Assembly (NCBI GenBank): GCA_902765215.1
Contig: CACWZA010000006.1
Coordinates: 1 to 64,000, forward strand
DNA: 64,000 nucleotides
Source: an uncultured bacterium
Lineage (GTDB): Bacteria > Cyanobacteriota > Vampirovibrionia > Gastranaerophilales > Gastranaerophilaceae
Direction of reading: 5' to 3'
In this document: positions 8,480 to 62,971 of the stretch, one piece after another
Layout: every line of letters begins with the position of its first letter
Numbering within the stretch: position 1 is the stretch's first letter
Made by a program: the position numbers and the translations under genes
Notes under the pieces: generated by a model
Seen by the model: only the letters and a program-made list of their open reading frames with translations
Told to the model about the DNA's origin: nothing
Databases searched by the model: none

Positions 8480-8602
8480 ACCATTCTCCTATTAATATAT
8501 ATTATATATATAATAAGTAAATACTCCTAAAAAAATTGCCTTGTTTTCACATGCTTTGTTAAGTATTGTAAATGTATTTTGGGGTATAGTCAATAGCGAA
8601 AA

Positions 8603-13808: not shown

Positions 13809-13995
13809 AAAATACTTTTAATACACCTCGTAAAATAAAACGAACTCTTTCTTATATATAAAAAAACTTTTTAAGAAGGCCGATTTCAAACCCGTGGTTT
13901 TGTAAAAACACTGAACACACTGATTATCACTTAATTTTAGCGATTTTAGACTTAATAAAAATTTACACTTTTTAAACAAACACTACACATAAAGA
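13809..13995. other. Leader and promoter region of the 637-aa protein
   Basis: AT-rich and without a gene. GAGGTG lies about 17 bases before the ATG at 13808, farther than usual. No convincing promoter stands out. Confidence 0.35.
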
Positions 13996-14836: not shown

Positions 14837-15124
14837 CTACGCTGCAAGCTCAAACTTTTTAGGTTCTTGTGCCTCTTTGCCTTCTTGAGCTTTCAGGGCA
14901 AATTCTTCATTCGATATCTTATCTATCTTTGCCTGAATTGCCTGCATAATCTTGTCACATACTTCTTGATTTGCGAGGATTTCATCAATCGAGATGTTTC
15001 CGTCGCCGTCAGAATCGCACTGAGAAAAATCTTTCGCGCTGATTCCGTTTTCTTCAGACTGCTGTCTTGTTATTTTTTCTGCATTAAAACTGGAAATAAA
15101 TGCATATCTGGATAAAATGTTCAT
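14837..15124 (-). CDS. Small EF-hand protein, 95 aa
   Basis: The protein carries one canonical EF-hand loop, DSDGDGNISIDEI, at about residues 37-49, so it should bind one Ca2+. The N-terminal 25 residues (MNILSRYAFISSFNAEKITR) include a partly hydrophobic segment but no clear signal peptide. The rest is helical and charged, ending in EPKKFELAA. Dimerisation through the single EF-hand is possible. AGAGGG lies about 13 bases before the ATG, farther than normal. A second, larger EF-hand protein is at 51083. The partner and role are unknown. Confidence 0.7.
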   Translation of the reverse strand: MNILSRYAFISSFNAEKITRQQSEENGISAKDFSQCDSDGDGNISIDEILANQEVCDKIMQAIQAKIDKISNEEFALKAQEGKEAQEPKKFELAA

Positions 15125-15439
15125 AATATAAAGCCCTCTTTTTGTTGTTTATTCTTCTTATTTAATCTTTTCTCTTTTTGTTCTTCTTCTCTGCTATAAA
15201 TGTTTCTCTATTATTTTCTCTATCTTTTTCTTTTTAATCTTCTTTCTCCGCAAGTTATGTAGCCGTTTTTACGGGTTAACACGTATCAAAAAACATAAAA
15301 TATCTCCTTATTGCATAATAGTAGCTCTCGTAAATTAAATTACATTATAATAAAGTCTAGTTTAAATGTATGAATTTCATAGCACTTTGAAAAGTTTACA
15401 ATTGTATACATTTTTAAAGTGTGTTAGAATAAAAGAACG
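15125..15439. other. Divergent promoter region
   Basis: A purine-rich (minus strand) tract of about 130 bases upstream of the EF-hand gene contains repeated AGAGAA and AAGAAG units. On the plus side TTGTAT (15402-15407), a 17-base spacer and TAGAAT (15425-15430) end nine bases before the ATG at 15440, so the AMIN-like gene would have almost no leader. No gene is seen. Confidence 0.45.
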
Positions 15440-25406: not shown

Positions 25407-25541
25407 ATTAACTAAAAACATGGGGAAAGCCTTACACAGCATGAATTGTGACAAATGTAACAAAAAATTTTTTCTCTGAAATCAGCAGTTATAAAAATAC
25501 TTTTTTTTTATGATTAGCTAATTTTCGAGAGTATATTATTC

Positions 25542-51082: not shown

Positions 51083-51643
51083 TTAGCTGTTGTTATTATC
51101 TTCCTGTATCCACTTATAAGACAACAAACTTGTTGAGTCGTCGTCTTTCTTATCATCACCGTAGAACAATGATGTTCTGTTAATCATATGGTTAAGGTCT
51201 TTTTGTTTACGGTTTTCCATTTTAGACTGCAAAATATATGCCTGAACTTCCCCACTTGAAACATAACCGTCATGGTTTGTATCAATATCCGTAAAGTGGT
51301 CTAAAATAGTTGATTGCGCATTTGCAGAAATGCCTGACATACCGCCGAGAGAACTTACCTGATCTCTTGTCAGACCTTTATTTGTCATTTGATTCATCAG
51401 TTTATCAACTTCTTTATTTGATAATTTGCCATCACTATTTTTATCCAAAGTTCCGAAGTTCTGGGATAAATATGATGCAAAAGTCGTTCCGTACGGGCTT
51501 GCTAAAAGGTTCGTATTTGTCATTGCCTTTGACAGATTCTTTTGGGTTAATCCGCCTGAATACATATTTGACAATACGGCATAAGAATTCCTTACACCTG
51601 CATTCACTCCCGCAAAAAGGGACGAAGCACTAAAATTTGCCAT
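51083..51643 (-). CDS. EF-hand protein with two calcium-binding loops, 186 aa
   Basis: Two canonical EF-hand loops are visible: DKNSDGKLSNKEV (near residue 67) and DTNHDGYVSSGEV (near 121), so the protein should bind two Ca2+. The N-terminus (MANFSASSLFAGVNAGVRNS) is Ser/Ala/Gly-rich with no signal peptide. AGGAGATT precedes the ATG. Together with the EF-hand protein at 14837 and the RTX protein it adds to a calcium-related theme. The partner is unknown. Confidence 0.75.
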   Translation of the reverse strand: MANFSASSLFAGVNAGVRNSYAVLSNMYSGGLTQKNLSKAMTNTNLLASPYGTTFASYLSQNFGTLDKNSDGKLSNKEVDKLMNQMTNKGLTRDQVSSLGGMSGISANAQSTILDHFTDIDTNHDGYVSSGEVQAYILQSKMENRKQKDLNHMINRTSLFYGDDKKDDDSTSLLSYKWIQEDNNNS

Positions 51644-58081: not shown

Positions 58082-58110
58082 CATGTTAAGACATGTTACA
58101 AAAAACATGC
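58082..58110 (+). promoter_or_regulatory. CATG-rich upstream element, copy before the 204-aa orphan
   Basis: CATGTTAAGACATGTTACAA, three further A, ACATGC. The minus strand of 62381-62406 has the same sequence without the three A. In both cases ACTTTATAT follows about 30 bases downstream and the ATG 60-70 bases downstream. Confidence 0.65.
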
Positions 58111-58181
58111 TAAAAAAGGCAATTAGTATATACTTTTAGACTTTATATAAATATATAAGAAGAATATTGAGGAGCTATAAA

Positions 58182-58796
58182 ATGAAGTACACACAAGGCG
58201 GAACGGCACCAGTACAACAAGGTTTAACAACCCCAACTATTACATCAAATGTAACCGCGCAAAAGACAGAAAACACCGGTTCAACATTTAATGTTGAAGA
58301 ATCTAATACTGCTCTTCAAAAACTGGGGACAACTGATTTAAGTATTCCGTTTAGTTTTGAAAACTATGCAAACAAATATGTTGCAAGCATGTTCAGATTA
58401 AGCGGGCCACTTGATCCAAACGCTACTGTTCTGAGTAAATTTGACGGAGCAACAACAGTTACAATTAATGATGTTCCAAATGCAATACAGAATGATGCTC
58501 AGGGATTTCAGGCAAGAATTAAAAAAGAAGTCGGTGATTTATTGAGTGCATCAAGAGGTAAAAACGATTCCGAAACAGGTACTGATGCAATTATCAATGC
58601 ATTTAACAGTAAATATGGTGATTTTCTGACAGCTTCTGTATGTATTGATCCGTTTGATAAAAAAGGTACAAGACCTTCTGTAACAATCACGCACAATGAA
58701 ACTCAACAACTTGCAGGATACTTCCCGCACGGAACAACCGTTGAGCAGGTAATGGAACAATCCAGTCAAATGTACGACGGATTGTTATCAGCATAA
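58182..58796 (+). CDS. Orphan protein, 204 aa, under the CATG-rich element
   Basis: TGAGGAG directly before the ATG at 58182 fixes the start; a TTG 15 bases upstream is rejected. The N-terminal 45 residues (MKYTQGGTAPVQQGLTTPTI and following) are polar and rich in Thr/Gln/Asn. The rest is mixed, with IPFSFENYANKYVASMFRLS near residue 58 and a beta-rich C-terminal part (RPSVTITHNETQQLAGYFPH). No signal peptide or membrane helix. No family was recognised. The promoter element is shared with the orphan at 62312. Confidence 0.65.
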   Translation: MKYTQGGTAPVQQGLTTPTITSNVTAQKTENTGSTFNVEESNTALQKLGTTDLSIPFSFENYANKYVASMFRLSGPLDPNATVLSKFDGATTVTINDVPNAIQNDAQGFQARIKKEVGDLLSASRGKNDSETGTDAIINAFNSKYGDFLTASVCIDPFDKKGTRPSVTITHNETQQLAGYFPHGTTVEQVMEQSSQMYDGLLSA

Positions 58797-61454: not shown

Positions 61455-62312
61455 TTATTGTGGTGGAGGCTGATTTCGCTTAGCAGCTTCTTCTTCCTCT
61501 TTTTGTCTGCGCAATTCTTCTTGTTGTTTCATTTCTTCCTGATTGATTGACTTAGAATCATCGCCTGTTTTAAGAGTTGGATCTTCTTCATCAGGATCTT
61601 TAGGCGGTTCACCAACATCTTCAGGGTTAGTTCCGTCTACATTTCCGCTATCATCACTAGGAGGAGCGCCGTTAGGGCCGCCTGTACCGTCCGCACCGCC
61701 TGCCCCATCAGTTGGGTTCTCTGCTGATAACATTCCTTCACCTGTCGGCTGACCTCCGCCAATACCGTCAAGGTTAAAGTTTAATGATATTTCAGAGCCC
61801 GGCCCGAGTCCGCCCGTCAGATTGAGAACATCAGAACCTGAGAATCTTGGTTTCCCTTGTGATTGTCCGCTGGCTGCATTATCAGGAGAATCACTGCTGT
61901 CAGAACCTGAAGGCTGTTGTATTGCACCCGGAGTTGTAACAGGAGCACCACCGATAGCGGAAGGAGCACCCGGCTGAATATTCGGATTATTCACATCCAT
62001 TCCCGGAGCATTGAAAACAGATCCACTCATAGAATTTGGATCAGCATCATTAACAAGACTCGTACCACCGCTGGATGCAGCAGAAGACGAAGCCGTTGTA
62101 AATCTTTGGACACCGTTTGGAGTATTTGCACTAGGATCAACACCAAATATACTGTTGGTGTTATACTTCTCGTTAAACTTGGCTGCACTGCCCTCGTCCT
62201 GATCAGGAGGGGTTACTTCCACCTGAGGAACACCTGCATTTTGCTCCTCGAGTCGCTTTCGCCTAAGCTCTTCGAGATCGTTTGAATATCCTGTATTAAA
62301 TGAAATACTCAT
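61455..62312 (-). CDS. Orphan Gly/Pro-rich protein, 285 aa, beginning MSISFNT
   Basis: ATG at 62312, preceded by AAAGGATTG, is the chosen start; a TTG frame reaching 62357 has no site. The protein begins MSISFNTGYSNDLEELRRKR, is low-complexity from about residue 65 to 235 with Gly, Ser, Pro and Asn, and ends in an acidic stretch and a charged helix (EEMKQQEELRRQKEEEEAAK). No signal peptide is seen. The first residues match those of the helical-repeat orphan at 8479. The CATG-rich element lies about 68 bases upstream. It is convergent with the radical SAM gene, with no gap. Confidence 0.6.
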   Translation of the reverse strand: MSISFNTGYSNDLEELRRKRLEEQNAGVPQVEVTPPDQDEGSAAKFNEKYNTNSIFGVDPSANTPNGVQRFTTASSSAASSGGTSLVNDADPNSMSGSVFNAPGMDVNNPNIQPGAPSAIGGAPVTTPGAIQQPSGSDSSDSPDNAASGQSQGKPRFSGSDVLNLTGGLGPGSEISLNFNLDGIGGGQPTGEGMLSAENPTDGAGGADGTGGPNGAPPSDDSGNVDGTNPEDVGEPPKDPDEEDPTLKTGDDSKSINQEEMKQQEELRRQKEEEEAAKRNQPPPQ

Positions 62313-62380
62313 AACAATCCTTTGTTTTTTGCTCTCTATAAATATAAAGTTTTTCAAAAACCCTCAATTTCAGAGGTTTA

Positions 62381-62406
62381 GCATGTTGTAACATGTCTTA
62401 ACATGC
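62381..62406 (-). promoter_or_regulatory. CATG-rich upstream element, copy between two divergent genes
   Basis: Minus strand: GCATGTTAAGACATGTTAC, then AACATGC. It matches 58082-58110 apart from a three-A gap. It lies between the orphan at 62312 (minus) and the DMT-like gene at 62439 (plus) and could act on both. Confidence 0.65.
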
Positions 62407-62777: not shown

Positions 62778-62971
62778 CAAAAATTCTATTGTTACAATTG
62801 TTACAAAAAAGTCAATTTTCTGAGAAAAAAATACTTTATATAAGTGGGATAAGTTATAGAGTATTAATACTGTTTCAGAAGATGGATATCTTATAATTGA
62901 TATTCATATAACGAAATTGTATCGATACATTTATAGAGTATTATCGAAAATTTAATATAAAGGGAATTACT
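62778..62971 (+). promoter_or_regulatory. Palindrome-rich promoter region of the 81-aa gene
   Basis: Two perfect 12-bp palindromes, AGTATTAATACT (62860-62871) and TGTATCGATACA (62918-62929), and a direct repeat TTATAGAGTATTA (62854-62866 and 62931-62943) lie before the gene at 62972. GTTACAAAAAA and TACTTTATATAAG are also present. The pattern suggests a dimeric regulator. Confidence 0.5.

Follow-up and report, generated by a model that had tools for sequence, protein, structure and literature searches.

An HLR1-like box joined to a fixed core forms a conserved promoter in Gastranaerophilales, with a probable RpaB-type activator and a likely link to a flagellum-derived export apparatus

Gastranaerophilales, which have members in the gut, are a non-photosynthetic sister group of the Cyanobacteria, where RpaB is known as a light-response regulator. 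Short promoter boxes also mark type III secretion regulons, among them the hrp box (HrpL), the tts box (TtsI) and the PIP box (HrpX). The site of RpaB is HLR1, and activation occurs when HLR1 lies at about -45 to -66 (PMC13421787). RpaA, RpaB and NblS have been on record in Melainabacteria since 2013, without a known role in cells not using light (PMC3787301), and incomplete flagella were reported in non-motile Gastranaerophilales (PMC3787301; PMC4040986). Here we describe a promoter in an uncultured bacterium of the Gastranaerophilaceae, starting from a CATG-rich element on contig CACWZA010000006.1, of which the first 64,000 nucleotides were analysed (the window). A response-regulator box ahead of a core promoter is an arrangement of known kind; the combination found here and its targets are new. 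We know of no prior description of this promoter or regulon, and a literature search found none, nor did it find any description of a type III system or of HLR1 sites in Gastranaerophilales.

The original prediction held that the element recurs in inverted form and precedes orphan genes, and both claims were confirmed at exact positions. Read directly from the window, CATGTTAAGACATGTTACAAAAAACATGC occupies 58082-58110(+) and GCATGTTAAGACATGTTACAACATGC 62406-62381(-), with the same 20-mer at 58082-58101(+) and 62405-62386(-); two exact copies of this 20-mer lie in the window, where 0.01 were expected. Across the genome (2.15 Mb, 47 contigs) ten matches were found with up to three mismatches, and none with the reversed control pattern. 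Both boxes are followed by ACTTTATAT, at 58140-58148 and 62350-62342, and then by the gene starts at 58182 and 62312. The flanks of the matches in this and sister genomes contain TGAAATY, about 16 bases, ACTTTATAT and then an open reading frame (ORF), and upstream the CATG element completes a composite promoter of 75 bases. In eight same-genus genomes a search for the core alone (GAAAT-N14..22-ACTTTAYAT), in which the CATG box was ignored, gave 99 matches, with a spacing of exactly 16 in 82 and of 17 in nine, compared to 15 matches at all spacings for the reversed pattern. When 66 of the matches were aligned on the core, a direct repeat of 10-base period, TRTWAASWNW-TGTWACAAAW, emerged upstream without having been selected for, its second half-site 22 bases ahead of GAAAT. 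The overall layout is therefore a direct repeat at fixed distance from GMAATY-N16-ACTTTATAT. The CATG form is the subtype CATGTTAAGA-CATGTTACAA of this repeat, to which a third CATG is often added after a further ten bases, and the promoter at 58082 carries GCAATT in place of GAAATT, a variant common to other sites. A subtype with three CATG at exact 10-base steps was seen at 62381-62406 and at several sites in sister genomes, which suggests that a third monomer or a second factor may bind there.

The distribution of the promoter was followed with R1, a sequence-only profile trained on 44 same-genus promoters; its E-values are rough, and genera outside the training genus serve as the independent test. 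In the genome studied, where the promoter is used about 25-40 times, R1 found 28 sites at E<=0.01, a number that rises to 39 at E<=0.05. Sites were present in 57 of 58 relatives, from seven families of Gastranaerophilales, with E-values that often reached 1e-9 or better; the same-class outgroup had zero. Among 194 genomes drawn from the whole phylum, all those listed from the same family carried sites at E<=1e-4, while about 109 other Cyanobacteriota gave one single marginal match in one genome. Within the family, the number of sites per genome did not differ significantly with the presence of flagellin (p=0.21). It is nearly certain that these sites represent a conserved composite promoter that defines a regulon.

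The targets agree with the predicted enrichment upstream of genes, as each of the genome's 23 top-ranking sites leads either into an ORF start (20 sites, most within about 100 bases) or into a short ORF-less stretch closed by a terminator hairpin with a T run (three sites). The idea of a shared element before orphan genes is strongly upheld, with the corrections that CATG as such is not the common feature and that apparent small RNAs also belong to the set. Three apparent small-RNA families lie behind high-scoring promoters, at G000:C12:33139-33211 plus about 140 nt downstream (L233), C37:12165-12235 (L238) and C2:84694-84767 (L245). The predicted transcripts of about 90-135 nt are largely unstructured and end in terminators; all three families are also found in sister species, their bodies conserved, and similar predicted short transcripts exist in other genera (L211, L216, L219). 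Families A and B contain CCUUCCU in single-stranded form, a motif with complementarity to ribosome-binding sites. Rfam assigned no family over threshold to the predicted short transcripts and gave one sub-threshold whalefall-1 match.

Among seven regulon proteins searched against Pfam no family was found beyond weak EF-hands. EF-hand-like calcium-binding motifs recur in orphan proteins of the regulon and nearby (window 14837-15124 and 51083-51643; L242). A single-sequence structure model of the 58182 protein was discarded as too poor for use (mean pLDDT 43). The N-termini of the targets do share features: none of 20 regulon proteins begins with a hydrophobic stretch, compared to 26 of 97 background ORFs, the share of S/T/N/Q in the first 30 residues is 33% vs 22%, and hydrophobic residues and cysteines are fewer there than in the background. 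This pattern fits putative substrates of type III export and not of Sec. The original suggestion of possibly exported products thus gains from the N-termini and from the position of some genes beside export genes, although the route would be type III and not Sec.

The genome encodes a candidate apparatus for such export, with FliE, FliF, FliH and FlhA in one cluster and a FliN/SctQ-like protein, FliO, FliP, FliQ and FliR in another; flagellin was not found in this genome. FliP is present in 57 of 58 genomes, the exception being the outgroup that lacks the promoter. Throughout the order, every genome without flagellin carries a single FliP of a short type (open frames of ~213-250 aa), while 28 of the 31 flagellated genomes have two or more, and the missing second copy in the other three is probably due to assembly gaps. 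In flagellated Gastranaerophilales the two FliP genes were seen in two separate clusters (L275 vs L276, G045). FliP of the genome studied shares 74% identity with the short FliP of the flagellated G045 but 41% with its flagellar FliP, and for FliR the same comparison gives 56% vs 29%. Due to these identities and the FliP counts, the earlier "incomplete flagella" look like a second, non-flagellar FliP-type system kept in every member of the order. The gene kinds (fliE, fliF, fliH, flhA, fliP, without flagellin) are those reported before (PMC3787301; PMC4040986), but as a paralogous system also found in flagellated relatives they would represent more than a decayed flagellum. The promoter is a further argument for viewing these structures in non-motile species as a separate export apparatus that would have a regulon of its own. 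A protein of 490 aa (G000:C2:106393-107865; L045:8394-9866, +), encoded apart from the full FlhA gene, contains of FlhA the C-terminal part alone (FHIPEP positions 321-655) and could be a stand-alone docking platform.

A regulon gene at C2:41.2 kb adjoins the fliR end of the fliR-Q-P-O cluster, and in G007 a promoter-driven gene lies immediately ahead of the FliP-type cluster. We consider it likely that the regulon is linked to the flagellum-derived export system. It resembles the hrp, tts and PIP systems in that a single short promoter element stands before numerous dispersed orphan genes whose products lack Sec signals, and the genome encodes a type III export apparatus, but the boxes show no sequence resemblance, and here the apparatus is flagellum-derived and the substrates are putative.

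Three regulators of the OmpR family are encoded in the genome. One is an RpaB ortholog (NCBIfam NF045944, 360.7 bits vs a cut-off of 330) with 67% identity to a Synechococcus homolog and a recognition helix, DTRVVDVHISRLRSKL, that the Synechococcus protein L151 shares unchanged; its closest named relatives are from Candidatus Gastranaerophilales genomes. The cyanobacterial HLR1 consensus (scored as KTTACAWW-N2-KTTACAWW) fits the box at a single register, in reverse orientation, which is the best match in 46 of 60 non-redundant sites. The mean best score was 13.9 of 16 vs 11.1 (sd 0.11) in shuffles, and the reverse-oriented match averaged 13.1 of 16, with agreement in the 10-bp period and a deviation in the first half-site. 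With a transcription start inferred just after ACTTTATAT, the predicted position of the repeat is about -50 to -68. The likeness to the HLR1/RpaB regulon includes two direct half-sites, of which the first departs from the consensus, the 10-bp period, a T[GA]TWA core, an ortholog of the OmpR-type regulator and, given the inferred start, a position ahead of the core that would match the activating class, while it differs in the fixed core promoter attached and in its targets, where orphan genes with a likely export link and predicted short transcripts take the place of photosynthesis genes. We regard RpaB, with some reserve, as the probable regulator of this promoter, and as the best candidate for the one regulator presumed in the original prediction.

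As the best explanation, which we favour with similar reserve, we propose that an RpaB-type activator site and a dedicated core promoter control a regulon tied to flagellum-derived secretion. The element would be the activator half of the composite promoter, where a response regulator of the OmpR family (the RpaB ortholog being the likeliest) would bind the two half-sites (TRTWAAS, TGTWACA) as a dimer. Being ten bases apart, or one helical turn, these should face the same side of the DNA, so that the bound regulator would sit ~50-68 bases ahead of the predicted start and could recruit RNA polymerase to GMAATY, 16 bases, ACTTTATAT, a core that an alternative sigma factor probably recognizes. 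The orphan proteins would probably be substrates or accessories of the second type III export apparatus universal in Gastranaerophilales, and the apparent small RNAs would be part of the same regulon. The promoter with its constant geometry and its distribution, the RpaB ortholog and the second FliP come directly from the computation; RpaB binding, activation, the sigma factor, transcription of the RNAs and export are predictions built on them.

Several observations weigh against this explanation. The better fit of the box to HLR1 is the reverse-oriented one, and the first half-site has TWAA where HLR1 has TTAC; due to the latter we claim no formal HLR1 membership. No R1 match lies directly upstream of rpaB, the fliE-flhA operon has weak and partial promoter matches upstream, in the divergent region C12:1955-2041, and the compositional signs of type III substrates lack specificity. 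To our knowledge the core fits no sigma consensus. Finally, P0010, a second member of the OmpR family, is clearly an ortholog of RpaA (E 2e-79 to a solved RpaA chain, with an identical helix IETIRVHIRHLR) and could bind the box instead. RpaA and RpaB share targets in cyanobacteria and have promoters in common in Synechococcus, so that the same promoter and regulon might be served by RpaA or by the third family member. We consider this main rival unlikely; of the two regulators, RpaB supplied the consensus that was compared, and it fits the box at one register.

Equally unlikely, in our estimate, is a 75-bp element read mainly by an alternative sigma factor together with an unrelated or unknown activator, in which case the HLR1 likeness would be coincidental. 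The core with its fixed spacing is the most invariant part, and the genome encodes seven sigma-factor candidates, FliA-like and SigF-like proteins among them, but sites of the OmpR family typically have such a 10-bp direct repeat ahead of the core. The box arms also fit TGTNAN7TNACA, the GlnR/TnrA type, but direct symmetry fits better than inverted, the inverted-repeat reading leaves the conserved TG of the second half-site unexplained, and no GlnR/TnrA was found in the genome, where MerR_1 matched only a Fic-like and a 556-aa protein; this assignment was rejected. That a dispersed repeat or mobile element lies ahead of the genes by chance is hardly credible. Identical 20-mers do recur in the genome, but the likeness is limited to promoter positions with fixed spacing while spacers and flanks vary by site, and the sites are kept ahead of similar genes in other species, all pointing into genes; no common flanks or target-site duplications were seen, and a mobile repeat was rejected.

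Returning to the RpaB-type activator, the promoter offers a concrete candidate target set for such a regulator in non-photosynthetic cells and an entry point to many orphan genes found in gut Gastranaerophilales. A bolder version, in which RpaB is the master regulator of the second flagellum-derived secretion system and acts through an HLR1-derived promoter on dozens of secreted orphans and C-rich small RNAs, is put forward tentatively and seems to us somewhat doubtful. If it were true, the light response would be one branch of an older regulator.

Features of the composite promoter and its genes are compiled in Table 1. Of the weaker relatives named in the original prediction, the site before 25542 proved strong and that before 62972 weak, and the one before yggS has no R1 match. 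Before 8479 we found a candidate variant core (8539-8508, minus) with the box in opposite orientation. Sister-genome genes similar to the EF-hand gene 15124-14837 carry the same core (L051, L090).

Table 1. Promoter elements, candidate sites and downstream genes in the window
Feature	Position	Strand	Remarks
Upstream box, putative activator-type, HLR1-like	58082..58110	+	Direct repeat CATGTTAAGA-CATGTTACAA, 10-bp period, plus third ACATGC
Whole promoter	58082-58155	+	R1 profile 24 bits
Core promoter, variant GCAAT-N16-ACTTTATAT	58119..58148	+	Same GCAAT/TCAAT variant in L003, L027, L028, L040
Orphan gene, 204 aa	58182..58796	+	Pfam: no match; N-terminus not hydrophobic
Upstream box	62381..62406	-	Three CATG at 10-bp steps, CATGTTAAGA-CATGTTACAA-CATGC
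Core promoter GAAAT-N16-ACTTTATAT	62342..62371	-	Whole promoter 62405-62335, R1 profile 55 bits
Orphan gene, 285 aa, low complexity	61455..62312	-	Pfam: no match
Promoter of the same kind	25451..25503	+	R1 profile 30 bits
Orphan gene, 302 aa	25542..26450	+	Downstream of promoter 25451..25503
Weak promoter match, TGTTACAATTGTTACAAAAAA ... ATACTTTATAT	62790..62849	+	R1 profile 17 bits
Orphan gene, 81 aa	62972..63217	+	Downstream of weak promoter 62790..62849
Weak promoter match ahead of gene 13808-11895	13847..13916	-	R1 profile 15 bits
Candidate core GAAAT-N17-ACTTTATTAT	15347..15378	-	~220 nt ahead of EF-hand gene 15124-14837
Candidate variant core GCAAT-N16-ACTTATTATAT	8508..8539	-	Ahead of gene 8479-7553 (MgtE_N domain)
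TGTTAAGTATTGTAAA box	8557-8572		Strand opposite to core 8508..8539

The flagellin promoters of flagellated relatives, inspected by eye, contained no obvious copy of the core. Upstream of era, on the minus strand at 57913-57760 of the window, a weak promoter match leads into CTCCTCC and a hairpin, GCCGTATCAATAGATCGGC, with a T run, and this stretch is possibly another small RNA.
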